Shown: piece after piece, positions 1-62,484 of the stretch
Position numbering within the stretch: the stretch's first letter is position 1
Layout: each line of letters begins with the position of its first letter
Made by a program: the position numbers and the translations under genes
The notes under the pieces: generated by a model
Told to the model about the DNA's origin: nothing
The model's input: the letters and a program-made list of their open reading frames with translations, nothing else
The model's database searches: none
Assembly: GCF_025751435.1 (NCBI RefSeq)
Contig: NZ_JAOWKY010000006.1
Span: 62,001-126,000 of the forward strand
Direction of reading: 5' to 3'
DNA from: Albidovulum marisflavi
GTDB lineage: Bacteria; Pseudomonadota; Alphaproteobacteria; Rhodobacterales; Rhodobacteraceae
DNA length: 64,000 bases

Positions 1-719
1 GGCGCAAATCCTACCGTCCCGCGCCGCTCGCCATCGGAACCAACACCGATCCCTACCAACCGATTGAGGCGCGCTATCGGATCATGCGCAGCGTGCTTCA
101 GGTCCTTTCCGACCGGAACCATCCGGTCGCGATCGTGACGAAAGGGGCATTGATCGAACGCGACATCGACATCCTGGCGCCGATGGCAGAGCGCGGTCTG
201 GTGCATGTCGGCGTTTCGGTCACGAGCCTGGATGCAGGACTGTCCCGCAGGCTTGAGCCGCGCGCACCCGTCCCGGACCGGCGTCTGGCCGCGATGGCGC
301 GACTTGCAGACGCGGGAATTCCGGTGCGGGTCATGATCGCACCGGTGATCCCCGTGCTGACGGAACCGGAAATCGAGCGAATTCTGACCGCCGCACGCGA
401 TTGCGGGGCCAAGGCGGCTTCGTGGATACTTCTGCGCCTGCCGCTGGAGGTCGCGCCCCTGTTCCGCGATTGGCTTGAAAGGCATGAGCCGGGGAGGGCG
501 GCGCATGTCATGAACCGTCTGCGCGACATGCGCGGCGGTGCGGATTACGATGCGGAATGGGGCAAGCGGATGCGCGGGCAGGGTGTTACGGCCCAGCTGA
601 TTGCGCGGCGATTCGAGCTCGCCGCCAAAAGGCTTGGGCTCGACGCGCCCTTGCCCGCGCCAAGGACCGACCTGTTCCGCCGGCCGCCCAAGGCGGGCGA
701 CCAGCTGTCCTTGTTCTGA
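1..719 (+). CDS. PA0069-family radical SAM protein (5' truncated by window)
   Basis: The gene enters the window already in frame (first complete codon at base 3), so only the C-terminal part, about 238 residues, is visible. The segment GTNTDPYQPIE near the left edge is typical of the PA0069 branch of radical SAM proteins, related to spore photoproduct lyase. The CxxxCxxC cluster that binds the 4Fe-4S centre should lie upstream of the window. The rest reads as a continuous SAM-barrel tail with motifs such as VTKGALIERD and APVIPVLTE. The substrate of this branch is not established. It converges on bmt with about 50 bp between stop codons. Confidence 0.8.
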   Translation, partial: RKSYRPAPLAIGTNTDPYQPIEARYRIMRSVLQVLSDRNHPVAIVTKGALIERDIDILAPMAERGLVHVGVSVTSLDAGLSRRLEPRAPVPDRRLAAMARLADAGIPVRVMIAPVIPVLTEPEIERILTAARDCGAKAASWILLRLPLEVAPLFRDWLERHEPGRAAHVMNRLRDMRGGADYDAEWGKRMRGQGVTAQLIARRFELAAKRLGLDAPLPAPRTDLFRRPPKAGDQLSLF

Positions 720-770: not shown

Positions 771-1784
771 CTAGCCGCGCCGGCGCCCGCGCCGCTCGCG
801 GCCGGGGGCGGCATCGTCCCCGGTGCCGTCCGAGGCCGACGAGAAGCCGCCAAGCTTGTCCGCGATCTCATCCAAGGTCGGGCGGGGTCCGCGAGGCCGG
901 GTTTCCAGCGCCTGACGCATCGCCGCCAGATGGGCGGGCATGGTGCCGCAGCACCCGCCGATGATGGTTGCGCCCGCATCGCGGGCCAGAACGGCGTATT
1001 CGGCCATCAGTTCGGGCGTGCCGTCGTAGTGGATATGCCCGTCGTGATACTTCGGGATGCCTGCGTTGCCCTTGGCGATGACCGGCCGCTCGGGGCCCGC
1101 CGCGACGAACCCGAGGATCGTGCGCATCAGGTCTGCAGCACCCACGCCGCAGTTGGCGCCGAAGGCCAGCGGGGGATGGGCCAGCTTGTCGACCATCGCC
1201 ACCATCTGCGCCGAGGTCACGCCCATCATGGTGCGGCCAGCCGTGTCAAAGCTCATGGTGCCGCACCAAGGCATGCCAACCTTTTCAAAGGCTTCGGCGG
1301 CTGCCTTGAACTCCTCTGGCGCCGAGATCGTCTCTACCCAAAGCACGTCCGCGCCGGCATCCTTCAGCGCCTCGGCCTGCTCGTGGAAGATCTCCACCGC
1401 AAGCTCATGGGTCAGGGTTCCCATCGGCGCCATGATCTCTCCGGTCGGACCCATCGAGGCGGCGACGACAACGGGCCGTCCCGCGTTGGCCGCCACTTCG
1501 CCCGCAAGCTCGACGCCGGCGCGGTTGATTTCGCGCACACGTCCGGCGGCGCCGTGCAGTTTCAGCCGGCTTGCGTTCCCGCCGAAGGTGTTGGTCAGGA
1601 AAATGTCGGACCCGGCGTCCACTGCGCTTTTGTAGAGTTTGCGGATGTTGTCGGGCTGCTCGACGTTCCACATCTCGGGCGCTTCGCCCGAGGCGAGCCC
1701 CATGTTGAAGAGGTTTGTGCCGGTCGCGCCGTCCGCCATCAGCCAATCGCGCGTTTCAAGCAGGCGGGAGAGGAGATCGCTCAT
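771..1784 (-). CDS. bmt: Betaine-homocysteine S-methyltransferase (zinc-type)
   Basis: A 337-residue homocysteine S-methyltransferase-fold protein (PF02574). It probably transfers a methyl group from glycine betaine to homocysteine, giving methionine and dimethylglycine in the cytoplasm. The zinc-thiolate ligands are visible as GANC (C212) and GGCC (C278, C279). [11 protein letters not shown] near residue 16 is the family's N-terminal motif. The ATG starting [10 protein letters not shown] was chosen because the longer frame adds about 65 residues unlike the family. The end is odd: after the barrel there is a disordered Ser/Asp/Gly linker and the basic tail [10 protein letters not shown] similar tail ends the corrinoid activator in this window. 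The leader holds a 7-bp inverted repeat. Methyl-donor specificity is inferred from the family. Confidence 0.85.
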
Positions 1785-42146: not shown

Positions 42147-43232
42147 GTGTCAGGGCCGCTGAGAGGACTAAGGATCATCGAGATAGCCGGTCTGGGCCCC
42201 ACGCCCTTTGCCGCGATGACGCTGGCAGACATGGGGGCAGAGGTCCTGAGGATCGAACGACCCGGAAGCGCGCACATCTTCGGCCTGAACTACGAGGTGC
42301 TAAACCGGGGGCGGGGATTTGTAACCCTTGATCTTAAGGACGCGGACGGTCGGGCCATGGCGCGGCGGCTGATCCATCGCGCGGATGGGCTTGTCGAAGG
42401 ACTGCGCCCGGGCGTGATGGAGCGGCTGGGGCTTGGCCCGGACGACTTTCCGGACAACCCGCGTCTTGTCTATGGCCGCATGACCGGGTGGGGACAGGCG
42501 GGGCCGCTTTCGCAGACCGCCGGCCACGATATCAACTACATCGCGCTGACCGGGGCGCTGCATGCGATTGGAACGGAGGAACGGCCTGTGCCGCCTCTGA
42601 ACCTGCTGGGCGATTTCGGCGGTGGTGGGATCTACCTTGCGTTCGGCATGGTGTGCGCGCTGTTCGAGGCTGCACGCTCGGGTCGGGGGCAGGTCGTCGA
42701 TGCCGCGATCACGGACGGAGTGGCGCATCTGTCGGCAATGATCCGAACGCTGCTGGCGGGCGATGCCTGGGCCGGTGGGCGCGGGCGGAACCTGCTGGAC
42801 GGCGGAGCGCCCTACTACGGTACGTATCGATGCAAATGCGGGGGCTTCGTCGCGCTTGGCGCCATCGAGGAAAAGTTCTGGATGTCGTTCCTGACCATCG
42901 CCGGGCTTGATCCGGCTTCGCTGCCCGATCGCCACGATCCGGAGAAGTGGTCCGACCTGCGCGCCTTGCTTGAGGCGCGTTTCATCTCGCGCACGCGCGA
43001 CGAATGGGCGGCGCTTGCAGAGGGCAGCGATGCCTGCCTGACCCCAGTACTTGATCTGGCAGAGGCGCCCGGCCACCCACACAACGTTTCACGCGAGACC
43101 TTCGTAAGCCACGAAGGTGTGACACAGCCCGCGCCCGCTCCCCGACTTTCGCGGACGCCGGGTGAGATTGCCGAGGGATCGCAAAAACGATCCCTCGATC
43201 CCGAACAGGTCCTGGCAAAGTGGGGGGCGTGA
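42147..43232 (+). CDS. Alpha-methylacyl-CoA racemase-like CaiB/BaiF protein
   Basis: A 361-residue member of the class III CoA-transferase fold that looks like the racemase branch. H127 in AGHDINYIALTGAL, D156 in LNLLGDFGGGG and E241 correspond in position and context to the catalytic residues of mycobacterial alpha-methylacyl-CoA racemase. It would epimerise 2-methylacyl-CoA thioesters in branched-lipid or sterol breakdown. The GTG start is set by AGGAGG six bases upstream; no ATG fits. It converges with the corrinoid activator gene, ten bases apart. Confidence 0.85.
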   Translation: MSGPLRGLRIIEIAGLGPTPFAAMTLADMGAEVLRIERPGSAHIFGLNYEVLNRGRGFVTLDLKDADGRAMARRLIHRADGLVEGLRPGVMERLGLGPDDFPDNPRLVYGRMTGWGQAGPLSQTAGHDINYIALTGALHAIGTEERPVPPLNLLGDFGGGGIYLAFGMVCALFEAARSGRGQVVDAAITDGVAHLSAMIRTLLAGDAWAGGRGRNLLDGGAPYYGTYRCKCGGFVALGAIEEKFWMSFLTIAGLDPASLPDRHDPEKWSDLRALLEARFISRTRDEWAALAEGSDACLTPVLDLAEAPGHPHNVSRETFVSHEGVTQPAPAPRLSRTPGEIAEGSQKRSLDPEQVLAKWGA

Positions 43233-43242
43233 CGGTCGGGCG

Positions 43243-45285
43243 TCAGCCACGCCGCCGCCTGCGCCCGCCCTCGGTCCCGCCGCCCGATCCGCCGGTGTTG
43301 AAGCTGACATCGGGCAGGGTGACCACCTTCGAAAGCTCCGGGAAGGTGTCGACTGCGTGCGGCATCGCGTTCGCGGCGACGAAGTGTTCCTGGAAGCGCG
43401 GCTCGATCGCGGTTTCGACCTTGTGGATGCGCTTGACCTCGTCCTCGATCGCGGCGCGGGAGCCGACGTTGCACAGCGCGATGCGCGCGCCCGTTCCGGC
43501 CGCGTTCCCGGCCGAGGTTACCTTGTCCAGCGGCACGTCGGGGATCATCCCCAGAACCATCGCGTGCTTGGGGCTGATATGCGCCCCGAACGCGCCGGCA
43601 AGGACGACGCGGTCGACCTTGTCGATCCGCAGTTCGTCCATCAGCAGGCGCGCGCCGGCGTAAAGCGCGGACTTCGCAAGCTGGATCGCGCGGATGTCGC
43701 CCTGGGTGACGCTGATCAGGGGGCCGCCAGTGGCGGTCCCGTCATGCAGGACGTAGGCGTTGGTGCGCCCGGTGGCCACGCAACGCGGCGTGCCCGTCTG
43801 TTCGGCCGAACCGATCAGCCCGCCAGCATCGACGATGCCCGCCATGCGCATTTCGGCGACGACCTCGATGATGCCGGAGCCGCAGATCCCCGTGATCCCG
43901 GTGCCGGTGGTGGCGGCGGAAAAGCCCGGATCGTCCGACCACAGGTCGCTGCCGATCACGCGGAACCGCGGTTCCTTGGTGACGGGATCGATCTCGACCC
44001 GTTCGATTGCGCCCGGCGCGGCCCGCTGGCCGGCACTGATCTGCGCGCCCTCGAACGCGGGACCGGTGGGCGACGAGCAGGCCAGAACCCGGTCCTTGTT
44101 GCCGCAAAGGATTTCCGCGTTCGTGCCGACGTCCACGATCAGCACCATGTCCTCGGACTTGTTCGGCTCTTCCGACAGCGCGACGGCGGCGCAGTCCGCG
44201 CCGACGTGCCCGGCGATGCAGGGCAGTATGTAGACGCGCGCATGATCGTGGATCGCGCCCAACTCAAGTTCGCTGGCGGACAGGGACAGGCTTTCCGACG
44301 TGGCCAGCGCGAAGGGCGCCTGGCCAAGTTCGACCGGGTCGATGCCCAGAAGAAGGTGGTGCATGACCGGGTTGCACACAAAGACCGCCTCGACGATCTG
44401 GCGCGGGTCGATGCTGGCTTCGGTTGCGATGGCCTGGGCAAGGCCGTTCAGCGCATGGCGCACGGCCGAGGTCATCTCCCTGTCGCCGCCCGGGTTCATC
44501 ATCGCGTAGCTGACCCGGCTCATCAGATCCTCGCCGAAGCGGATCTGCGGGTTCATGAGGCCCGAGGAGGCAAGAACATTGCCGTTGCGCAGGTCGCACA
44601 GATGCGCGGCGATTGTGGTCGAGCCAAGATCGATCGCCAGGCCGTACAGCCGGCCTTCCCAGTAGCCCGGCCAGATGTCGATGATGCGGGGCCTGCCGCG
44701 ATGGTCCTTGTGAATGGCGACGGTGACCTTCCATTCGCCCTTGCGCAGGATCGGTTGCAGCCGGCCCAGAAGGACGGCGTCGGCCTCAAGCCCCTCGATC
44801 TGCCACTGTTCGCGCAGCGCGTCGGACAGGCGCTGAAAGTCGCCCGAAGGTTCGTGCATGTCGGGCTCTGAAACCTCGACGTAATAGGCGTGGGTGGCCG
44901 GATCCATCGTGATGTCGCGCTGTGTCGCGGACTTGCGGATGACCTGGCGGTGAACCTGGCTTTCCGGGGGCACGTCGATGACGATGTCTTCCATGATCTT
45001 GGCCTGACATCCCAGGCGCCGACCTTCCTTTAGCCCGCGGATGCGGTCGTAGCGCGCCTCGACCTCGTTCCATTCGGAAAGCGCGCCCTGGCTCACGGTG
45101 ACGCCGTGCTTGGGGAATTCGCCATATCCCGGCGTGATCTGGCACTTGGAGCAGATGCCGCGCCCGCCGCAAACCGAATCGAGGTCGACCCCCAGCTGAC
45201 GCGCAGCCGTCAGGACGGGCGTGCCTACGGGGAAGCGACCACGCTTGCCCGATGGGGTGAAGATCACAAGCGGCTGGTCGGTCAT
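43243..45285 (-). CDS. Ferredoxin-ASKHA corrinoid activation protein (DUF4445, RACo/RamA-like)
   Basis: A 680-residue protein. The N-terminal 2Fe-2S domain has C39, C45, C48 (VCGGRGICSKCQ) and C93 (RRLGCQAK). A linker leads to the ASKHA-type DUF4445 domain (LYGLAIDLGSTTIAAHLCD, VLIVDVGTNAEI, GTGITGICGSGIIEVV, VLAGAFGAHI). Relatives use ATP and electrons to reduce inactive Co(II) corrinoid proteins of methyltransferase systems. The corrinoid protein and methyltransferase it serves are not nearby. Its C-terminus is a glycine-rich stretch ending GGRRRRRG, matching the tail on Bmt. It is last in a minus-strand row after a CoA-transferase. Confidence 0.85.
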   Translation of the reverse strand: MTDQPLVIFTPSGKRGRFPVGTPVLTAARQLGVDLDSVCGGRGICSKCQITPGYGEFPKHGVTVSQGALSEWNEVEARYDRIRGLKEGRRLGCQAKIMEDIVIDVPPESQVHRQVIRKSATQRDITMDPATHAYYVEVSEPDMHEPSGDFQRLSDALREQWQIEGLEADAVLLGRLQPILRKGEWKVTVAIHKDHRGRPRIIDIWPGYWEGRLYGLAIDLGSTTIAAHLCDLRNGNVLASSGLMNPQIRFGEDLMSRVSYAMMNPGGDREMTSAVRHALNGLAQAIATEASIDPRQIVEAVFVCNPVMHHLLLGIDPVELGQAPFALATSESLSLSASELELGAIHDHARVYILPCIAGHVGADCAAVALSEEPNKSEDMVLIVDVGTNAEILCGNKDRVLACSSPTGPAFEGAQISAGQRAAPGAIERVEIDPVTKEPRFRVIGSDLWSDDPGFSAATTGTGITGICGSGIIEVVAEMRMAGIVDAGGLIGSAEQTGTPRCVATGRTNAYVLHDGTATGGPLISVTQGDIRAIQLAKSALYAGARLLMDELRIDKVDRVVLAGAFGAHISPKHAMVLGMIPDVPLDKVTSAGNAAGTGARIALCNVGSRAAIEDEVKRIHKVETAIEPRFQEHFVAANAMPHAVDTFPELSKVVTLPDVSFNTGGSGGGTEGGRRRRRG

Positions 45286-45319
45286 AGGGAAACTCCGGGT
45301 GTTCCTGATGCGCGGTGCT

Positions 45320-45347
45320 ACCATAGGCAAGGAACCGGCGGCGGCAA
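45320..45347 (-). promoter_or_regulatory. Candidate promoter of the corrinoid activator gene
   Basis: On the minus strand, -35 TTGCCG, 16-bp spacer, -10 TATGGT, 34 bp before the start codon. Confidence 0.45.
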
Positions 45348-45370
45348 GGTCCGTTCGCGGCGCGTCAAGG

Positions 45371-46546
45371 TCAGCGTGCGTCAGGCGCGCGGAATTCCCG
45401 CTCTGACAGCCATCGCAGGATGGCGTCGCGGTCCCCGTCAAGGCTGGGCGAGGGCTTGCGCGCCGAGGGTTCGGCAATGCCCGTCATCTTGACGGGATTA
45501 CCCGCCGCAACGAAGGTGGGCCGTCCCTCTGGCGCGCTAACCGGCAAGACCATGTTGCGCGCCAAGACCTGCGGATCGGCCAATGCCTCGGCCATGTTCT
45601 GGACGCGGCCCGTCGGCACACCGTGTGCCTCAAGCGTCTCGATCCAGTGTGACCGGGGCAGCGTCAGTGTGACCATCTCGATCAGACGCTTGAGAAGATG
45701 GACGTTTTCGCAACGATCCGCGTTGGTGGCAAAGCGCGGGTCGGCGGCAAGCTCGGGCTGGCCCAGTGCCGCGCACAGCCGCGCGAAGATCGCGTCGTTC
45801 CCTGCGGCGATCACGAAGAATCCGTCCGAAGCGCGATAGGTCGAAAAAGGTGTGATCGTGGGATGTCGTGCACCTGTCGGGCCGGGCGGTTTGCCCGTGG
45901 CGGTGGTTATGGCAATCGCGTGTTCCTGGATCACGATCTGCGCATCCAGCATCGAGATATCCACCTTGGCGCCCTTGCCTGTGCGGTCGCGTGCCAACAG
46001 CGCGGCCAGGACGCCCTGCACCAGGTACATCCCGGCCACGATGTCGCCGATGGAAGCGCCGACCCGGACCGGACTGCCGCCTTCCTCGCCGGTGATGGAC
46101 ATGACGCCGCCGCGCGCCTGCACAACCATGTCATAGGCTGGCTTGCCCGCCTCGGGGCCCGTGTGGCCGAAGCCCGAGACCGCCCCGTAGATCAGCGATG
46201 GGAAGCGTGCGGACAGCTCGGCCCAGCCATATCCCAGCCCCTCCATCGCGCCGGGACGAAAATTCTCCAGGATCACGTCGGCCTGACCCAGCAGGCGTTC
46301 GAAGACGGCCCGGTCGGCTTGGGATTTGAGATCCAGCGCGATCGACTTCTTGCCGTGGTTGAGCGCGGCGAAATAGGCGCTTTCCCCGTCCTTGAACGGG
46401 GGGAAGGCGCGCGTGTCGTCGCCGCTTCCGGGGCGTTCGACCTTGATCACCGTCGCGCCGAAATCGGCAAGCTGGGTTGATGCGTAGGGCCCGGCAAGCA
46501 CATGCGTCAGGTCGATGACGACGATTCCGTCAAGCGGCGCGTGCAT
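45371..46546 (-). CDS. Class III CoA-transferase (CaiB/BaiF family)
   Basis: A 391-residue CoA-transferase. The expected catalytic aspartate is D139 in KPAYDMVVQARGG. VLAGPYASTQLADFGATVIKVE is the N-terminal CoA-binding block (shown in part), and VILENFRPGAMEGLGYG is diagnostic. The transfer uses an acyl-CoA donor and a free acid such as oxalate, succinate, carnitine or an aromatic acid; the substrate is unknown. GGAGGATTTC precedes the ATG. It lies between dsbA-like and corrinoid activator genes on the same strand. Confidence 0.87.
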   Translation of the reverse strand: MHAPLDGIVVIDLTHVLAGPYASTQLADFGATVIKVERPGSGDDTRAFPPFKDGESAYFAALNHGKKSIALDLKSQADRAVFERLLGQADVILENFRPGAMEGLGYGWAELSARFPSLIYGAVSGFGHTGPEAGKPAYDMVVQARGGVMSITGEEGGSPVRVGASIGDIVAGMYLVQGVLAALLARDRTGKGAKVDISMLDAQIVIQEHAIAITTATGKPPGPTGARHPTITPFSTYRASDGFFVIAAGNDAIFARLCAALGQPELAADPRFATNADRCENVHLLKRLIEMVTLTLPRSHWIETLEAHGVPTGRVQNMAEALADPQVLARNMVLPVSAPEGRPTFVAAGNPVKMTGIAEPSARKPSPSLDGDRDAILRWLSEREFRAPDAR

Positions 46547-61441: not shown

Positions 61442-62484
61442 AACTGACAGACTTCGATTTCGACCTTCCCGAGGCGCTGATAGCGACCCGCCCCGCAAAT
61501 CCGCGAACGTCTGCGCGACTTCTTGTGGCAGAGGACGACGCGATCGCGGACAGGCATGTCTGTGACCTGGTCGATCTGCTGCGCACAGGGGACCGGCTGG
61601 TTCTGAACGATACGCGCGTGATCCCCGCGCGACTTTCCGGCACGCGGTCCCGCGAAACGGGGCAGGGCACCGCGGTCGCGAGGATAGAGGCGACACTACT
61701 TGAGCCGAAGGCGGGGGGCACCTGGGTCGCGCTTGTCAAACCTCTTCGAAAGCTGAAGGAAGGGGAGGAGATCCGCTTTTCCGATCGCCTGTCGGCGCGC
61801 GTCGCAAGCATCGCCGAAGGTCAGGCCGAATTGGCCTTCAACCTGCAAGGGGAGGACTTCGACGCGGCTCTGGCAGAGGCTGGGGATATGCCCCTGCCAC
61901 CCTACATCGCTTCGCTGAGGGCACCCGACGCCCGCGACAAGACCGACTATCAGACGGTCTGGGCGCGCCATTCGGGCGCGGTGGCGGCACCCACCGCATC
62001 GCTGCACTTCGACGAGGCGCTTCTGCAGGCGCTTGCGGCCAAAGGCATCAACTTTACCCATGTGACGCTGCATGTGGGCGCGGGCACCTTCCTTCCGGTT
62101 AAGGTCGAGGACGTGACGACCCACCGGATGCACGCGGAGTGGGGCGAAGTAACCGCGAAGGCGGCGGAGGAGATCAACGCCACCAAGGCTGCCGGGGGCA
62201 GGGTGATCCCTGTCGGCACCACGGCGCTGCGCCTGATCGAGACGGCCGCGCGTTCCGGGCGGGTGGAGCCTTGGCGCGGCCCCACGGATATCTTCATCTA
62301 TCCCGGTTTCCGGTTCCATGTGACGGACGCGCTGATGACGAACTTCCACCTGCCCAAGTCCACGCTTCTGATGCTTGTCTCGGCGTTGATGGGCATGGAG
62401 CGGATGCGCAGGGTCTATGCCCATGCCGTCGCTTCGGGTTATCGTTTCTTTTCATACGGGGATGCGTCCCTTCTGATTCCGTAA
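61438..62484 (+). CDS. queA: S-adenosylmethionine:tRNA ribosyltransferase-isomerase
   Basis: A 348-residue enzyme that transfers and isomerises the ribosyl part of SAM onto preQ1-tRNA, giving epoxyqueuosine at position 34. Since tRNA-Asp (GUC) is a queuosine target, both copies in this window should be substrates. Landmarks are [51 protein letters not shown] and [19 protein letters not shown]. The start overlaps the AsmA-like stop (ATGA). Confidence 0.96.

Follow-up and report, generated by a model that had tools for sequence, protein, structure and literature searches.

Why should a homocysteine methyltransferase and a corrinoid activator, encoded far apart on one contig, end in the same kind of arginine-rich tail? 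The question arises in a stretch of 64,000 nt from Albidovulum marisflavi (GCF_025751435.1, NZ_JAOWKY010000006.1, positions 62,001 to 126,000, forward strand), which we call the window and which belongs to a 3.8 Mb genome with 64% GC. The features concerned are the following.

1784-771, minus strand: mtgE ("bmt"), homocysteine module of a split methionine synthase, 337 aa (PF02574, NCBIfam PRK07534)
800-774, minus strand: arginine-rich C-terminal tag RERRGRRRG of MtgE (from the translation)
801-854, minus strand, approximate limits: Ser/Gly/Asp-rich linker from the MtgE fold to the tag (AlphaFold2 pLDDT, linker divergence)
45285-43243, minus strand: corrinoid reactivase, RamA/RACo-like (ferredoxin and ASKHA, DUF4445 type), 680 aa (PF14574, PF17651, PF17650)
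43246-43269, minus strand: arginine-rich C-terminal tag GGRRRRRG of the reactivase (72 of 73 orthologues retain the arginine block)
84-719, plus strand: part of a radical-SAM gene that starts left of the window and lies between mtgE and mtgC (PF04055), an untagged control

The earlier note on this DNA had read the two C-termini as RERRGRRRG and GGRRRRRG, each after a Gly/Ser/Asp-rich stretch, and both readings hold at their positions. The mtgE stop codon is TAG, and the reactivase ends with NTGGSGGGTEGGRRRRRG before a TGA stop. Such endings are otherwise rare in the window, as had been claimed: no other gene called there reaches five arginines in ten residues. The two-protein pair was an undercount; both tails are real, but MtgD, encoded on contig C2, is tagged as well. 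The reactivase gene is flanked on both sides by genes outside methyl transfer (42215-46546), and these two neighbours look like CoA-transferases.

Identity of the tagged enzymes

MtgE consists of a single PF02574 domain whose nearest solved homologue is the homocysteine module of MetH (1q7m, E = 1.8e-37). The solved betaine-homocysteine methyltransferases (BHMT) matched with E = 1.4e-13 (1umy) and 5.2e-11 (1lt7). The NCBIfam equivalog PRK07534, a model that also spans the tail, labels the protein betaine--homocysteine methyltransferase; by the structure matches MtgE lies closer to the MetH module than to solved BHMT. On these structure matches and on the genetics reported in PMC5764234 and PMC12478193, the name "Bmt" in the sense of betaine-homocysteine methyltransferase, as used before, is probably a misnomer.

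The gene order here, from profile matches, is mtgE, radical SAM, mtgC and DUF1638, with mtgC just outside the window, and the matching order is found in Phaeobacter inhibens (PGA1_c13370 to c13340; PMC5764234). Mutant fitness in Phaeobacter assigns the methyltransferase, the corrinoid protein and a pterin-binding protein to a split methionine synthase, whose B12 is likely reactivated by a DUF4445 protein and a DUF1638 protein, the latter co-fit with the pathway and counted as a member of it (PMC5764234). The names MtgE, MtgC and MtgD for the modules come from PMC12478193, which reports that in Ruegeria pomeroyi mtgC and mtgD are both required for methionine synthesis and for growth on glycine betaine, and that two MttB-type proteins are more abundant on betaine. 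Methionine prototrophy is reported to need the split synthase in both Phaeobacter and Ruegeria (PMC5764234, PMC12478193), and, by the published genetics of these relatives, MtgC is common to methionine synthesis and betaine demethylation.

The synthase is likewise split in the present genome: PF02574, PF00809 and the B12-binding cap and domain lie in separate proteins. MtgD, the methyl-THF:corrinoid module (PF00809), ends with AAAGRGGRGGRRARA (also given as GRGGRGGRRARA). The reactivase carries the linker, middle and C-terminal ASKHA domains of RACo and aligns with RACo 3zyy over residues 8-650 (E = 4.8e-86), while the match to the AcsV model stops at residue 648. By sequence it is a RamA/RACo-like corrinoid activator, with a putative role in the ATP-driven reduction of Co(II) corrinoid.

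The genome holds eleven MTTB matches, ten of them full length. A search for MtgC gave one match, and PF02310 returned the same small corrinoid protein and two long frames, which look like acyl-CoA mutases. The genome thus has ten full-length MttB-type methyltransferases for the one small corrinoid protein found in it, and all ten may use MtgC.

Conservation of the tails

Orthologues were collected from 190 genomes sampled evenly across the class Alphaproteobacteria, from 398 genomes of the phylum and from fetched stretches. MtgC occurs at at least 70% identity in 35 of the 190 class-survey genomes. The reactivase occurs at at least 50% identity in 36 genomes, which span 28 families; MtgC is also present in 34 of these genomes, and the sole MtgC genome without a reactivase (G127) is 74% complete.

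A tail was scored as at least four arginines in ten residues in the region beyond the fold. By this measure 72 of 73 reactivases have kept it, as have 45 of 45 MtgD proteins (one frameshifted second copy, L162, set aside) and 27 of 29 MtgE proteins, together 144 of the 147 evaluated orthologues, counts that contain close relatives and whose rows are not independent. The reactivase rows comprise all 37 places at at least 49% identity and all 36 new ones. Of the 31 MtgE places, 29 went into the count (L111 is truncated by its contig and G077 was left out), and G077 was also left out of the 37 MtgD places. Open frames, and duplicates as judged by the last 120 residues, were dropped, and the MeTr protein of L368, below the score cut in this count, was read from a separate stretch. 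Three truncated true orthologues that had been sorted as "divergent" (L333, L023 and L028) are tailed too. The comparison across orthologues proposed in the earlier note therefore finds the tails kept in close and distant orthologues alike.

Some variation exists within this pattern. About nine rhizobial reactivases, which resemble one another, have looser tails of 4-5 arginines, two MtgE tails are weak (L110 and L112), and in a few cases (L063, L145 and L146) the arginine block is followed by further residues. In G061, MtgE (L109) lacks the block, though the reactivase and MtgD of the same genome have one. In the metagenome-assembled genome G084 (L081 and L106), MtgE and the reactivase end early, before the tag, and the MtgD tail is kept; a similar repeated word (translated GISGSLT / PLALVGV) follows both shortened genes. 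The locus L162 (G185:C88) contains two MtgD-like frames that share their start, and the end of the second looks frameshifted; a recent duplication or an assembly error may lie behind this. Outside the class, L360 (G263:C1:48000-67500) holds MttB, MtgC, MtgD and the reactivase together, with the tags and the acidic end, and this suggests that the set was acquired by transfer.

Two arginines are invariant in all 20 aligned MtgE orthologues, which were chosen for tails and full length. Mean pairwise identity in the MtgE alignment falls to 0.25 over the linker, while the fold reaches 0.56 and the arginine block 0.63. The AlphaFold2 model of MtgE is confident to residue 310, and its pLDDT lies below 50 from residue 316 (316-336). 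The tag is thus a conserved short element outside the fold and is predicted to be disordered, as modelled for MtgE only.

Could such tails be functionless, the result of drift in composition or of frameshifts at the 3' ends of GC-rich genes? The 64% GC of the host and the mostly GC-rich arginine codons would suit this origin. However, all three tails persist in a genome of 32-34% GC (G062), where MtgE uses mostly AGA and the others mixed arginine codons, and GC drift is rejected as their cause. The 144 of 147 tagged orthologues, set against only 7 of 1206 neighbouring genes that reach five arginines in ten, speak further against a functionless origin, which we consider extremely improbable.

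Restriction of the tag to one methyl-transfer system

The background in this genome was taken from 60 stretches of 20 kb and the window, 1.26 Mb or about a third of the genome, with 1106 crudely called genes. At least five arginines in some ten of the last 25 residues occur in 16 of these 1106 genes, the activator among them, and at least six in none; mtgE, with six, is absent from the 1106 because the crude caller lost it to an antisense ORF. The caller, which relies on the codon statistics of this genome, misses genes, and in 80 named loci it called MtgE in 50 and MtgC in 76. In these loci, five or more arginines in ten of the last 25 residues are found in 48 of 50 MtgE proteins, 26 of 26 reactivases and 6 of 22 MtgD proteins, in none of 76 MtgC proteins and in the 7 of 1206 other genes. 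With at least four in ten, the counts are 22/22 for MtgD, 1/76 for MtgC and 64/1206 for other genes. An equal frequency on unrelated proteins, which the earlier note had regarded as fatal to a special role, is not what these samples contain: the tail is rare there. Strict DNA patterns for RRRRG followed by a stop were also tried on the genome and gave six places, all short frames of 10-43 residues not taken for genes, and none with TAG; they could not find the tails, because the tails use other codons or residues.

Several neighbours in the same loci are untagged. DUF1638 proteins reach five arginines in ten in 0 of 73 cases and four in 6 of 73 (80 named loci), none of 39 radical-SAM homologues reaches four in ten, and the MetF-like neighbour of mtgD has no tag. 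The statement that both tailed proteins belong to one-carbon metabolism can accordingly be sharpened: the tag goes with one methyl-transfer system but not with one-carbon enzymes generally, the MetF-like, DUF1638 and radical-SAM proteins being untagged.

Enzymes of the same families that stand beside other corrinoid proteins served as controls. All four divergent reactivases (30-35% identity) and all four divergent MeTr proteins (G187, G081, G125 and G364) have at most three arginines in ten, so that on these eight controls the C-terminal tag goes with MtgC, with one MeTr protein (L152) having a basic end, KAWRTKQRETKRAAR. Some arginine also lies upstream of the fold in L155 and L156, MttB-like proteins that partner other corrinoid proteins. 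Three genomes from the window's family that have no reactivase also lack MtgC and contain MetH-like frames of 910-1277 aa. MttB occurs in 35 of 35 class-survey genomes with MtgC and in 5 of 155 without it, and the latter five (G007, G064, G071, G077 and G176) are drafts of 68-95% completeness. These observations support a tag confined, within the samples examined, to enzymes that need contact with MtgC.

The composition of the tails also allows a different target. Whole tails contain 18-25% arginine and 2.6-3.9% lysine, figures that cover entire tails, as the densest windows, chosen by arginine, would be biased. Gly/Arg-rich blocks with little lysine resemble RGG boxes, which makes RNA a putative partner, and a background protein with an arginine-rich end (L196) looks like a ribosomal protein. 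By composition, then, the tags may bind another polyanion, such as RNA, lipid head groups or polyphosphate, and so gather the enzymes, the acidity of MtgC being unrelated. Against this stand the untagged neighbours in the same loci, and MtgC itself, which all the enzymes must meet and which is untagged (0/76 at five or more) and opposite in charge. We regard another polyanion as an unlikely partner; RNA, DNA or membrane, the targets raised in the earlier note, are kept among the candidates.

N-termini of the MttB proteins

All ten full-length MttB proteins of this genome, judged by eye, start with an arginine-rich segment, for example MSDVGEGRRARGGGAARRAERTAVR. As the gene caller picked wrong starts for some MttB proteins, the count was made ahead of the fold and allowed lenient starts. 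At least four arginines in ten were found in 9 of the 10 proteins of this genome, in 26 of 29 from the class survey and in 28 of 29 from the named loci, 63 of 68 in total under this rule; four of the five misses still look arginine-rich, and the fifth (L296) has only GGGRRNR. Since 78 of 1106 background genes of this genome reach four arginines in ten within the first 45 residues, the N-terminal tag is by count less distinctive than the C-terminal one.

Many MttB N-termini (L007-L016, L223-L251 and L369-L388) share a pattern like R-R-G-R-G-G-x-x-A-R-R-A-x-R, which is more regular than the C-terminal tags and may form a helix. Among 20 members taken from a divergent MttB group, also judged by eye, 12 have a GGR..R..R.AP-like start, and most of the others have another basic cluster.

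The acidic N-terminus of MtgC

The N-terminus of MtgC follows roughly the pattern M..DDLDL..L.D.ELV.QMHDDLYDGL.EEI. Its first 34 residues carry a charge of -9 to -17 (mean -13.1, n = 36), and the same 34 residues in related corrinoid proteins carry -3 to -9 (mean -5.8, n = 9, with unverified starts). A charge of -10 or lower in the first 34 residues is found in 71 of 76 MtgC proteins and 2 of 1093 other genes of the named loci.

AlphaFold2 predicts a confident helix at residues 13-25. In the alignment with 1y80, the nearest solved relative, the match starts near residue 20 and 1y80 has only five residues before it, so that the MtgC N-terminus is about 15 residues longer; MttC in 7xcn aligns with MtgC from residue 14. 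The start of the cap domain (PF02607, from residue 20) falls within the acidic helix, so that the helix may be conserved for other reasons. A fusion of MtgC with a client was considered for the single long MtgC frame of the first locus set (L033) and rejected, as the extra part is only an open upstream frame.

The acidic N-terminus of MtgC is the likely receptor of the arginine tags. Alternatively, the tags could bind a common third protein, DUF1638 or some other scaffold, with MtgC joining separately. In favour of DUF1638, 73 of its genes were called across the 80 loci, each of the 14 loci with all five components called contains one, and the protein is co-fit with the pathway (PMC5764234). 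It has no comparable acidic segment, however, its most acidic 34-mer averaging -5.8, like other genes, and we consider a third-protein receptor quite improbable.

Proposed docking on MtgC

We propose that the tails are electrostatic docking tags by which exchangeable clients are held to MtgC, the corrinoid protein they would share, a reading that we favor because of the tags themselves, their conservation, their specificity and the opposite charge of MtgC, and to which we assign a probability of about 0.6. With the methionine synthase split, the small MtgC would have to meet MtgE, MtgD, the MttB-type demethylases and the reactivase in turn. Tags are present on all four of these client classes. 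Each client would offer an arginine block outside its fold, at the N-terminus in MttB and, in the other three, at the C-terminus behind a flexible linker. This block would bind, in a weak and exchangeable manner, to the acidic N-terminal segment of MtgC and to its first helix. The clients would thus be kept near the cobalamin, the role played by the linkers in one-chain MetH, and methyl transfer may be helped in this way. Besides the exceptions and the cap-domain overlap given above, two points weigh against docking on MtgC: arginine with little lysine also suits phosphate-bearing partners, and DUF1638, a member of the pathway, is untagged.

The idea of a docking tag, already put forward in the earlier note, thus survives in a wider form, in which one methyl-transfer system shares the tag, MtgD and the MttB N-termini are included, and MtgC is the putative receptor. 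A more far-reaching version, a transferable code of arginine tag and acidic hub by which MtgC serves about 13 clients through a common tag instead of the covalent links found in MetH, seems to us an even bet. These clients would be the homocysteine module, the folate module, the reactivase and ten MttB-type demethylases, and further ones may exist, the tag background covering about a third of the genome. If the code is real, the tag alone would mark a client of MtgC, and other methyltransferases could be fitted with it. One could then also predict from sequence which uncharacterised MttB proteins use MtgC, in a system described as a major oceanic route of N-osmolyte demethylation (PMC12478193).

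Comparison with known systems

The enzyme system itself is published. The split synthase and MtgBCDE glycine-betaine demethylase of Phaeobacter and Ruegeria comprise the same kinds of enzymes, the order DUF1638 - mtgC - radical SAM - mtgE and a shared corrinoid protein (PMC5764234, PMC12478193). For the tags we found no report among the matches listed in the open-licence literature, as far as titles and the starts of abstracts go. The main text of PMC12478193 contains "arginine" and "tail" zero times, and in the text of PMC5764234 that was available "tail" occurs zero times and "arginine" only in biosynthesis or references.

RACo 3zyy ends at its fold, whereas the window reactivase runs about 30 residues further and carries the tag there; MeTr structures stop at most a few residues past the fold. 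The solved MttB-type proteins, with their corrinoid complex (4yyc, 2qne, 9yce and 7xcn), share the MttB fold. The closest, 4yyc, aligns through the arginine-rich segment, and the alignments of 2qne and 9yce start at query residues 34 and 36, past this segment, with 18 and 2 residues preceding in the structures.

Modular corrinoid methyltransferases pose the question of how a single small B12 protein meets its many partners one after another, and a conserved tag on the partners with an oppositely charged segment on the shuttle makes this question testable by tail deletion and binding. One-chain MetH holds homologous homocysteine, folate and B12 modules in a single chain, whereas here they are separate proteins, the former two tagged; the reactivation domain of MetH belongs to another family than the reactivase of the split system (PMC5764234). 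Polyketide synthase docking domains and peripheral subunit-binding domains are, like the proposed tags, terminal elements that bring modules to a shared carrier. Those elements are mostly folded domains or helical pairs, in contrast to the disordered arginine block facing an acidic segment that is proposed here.
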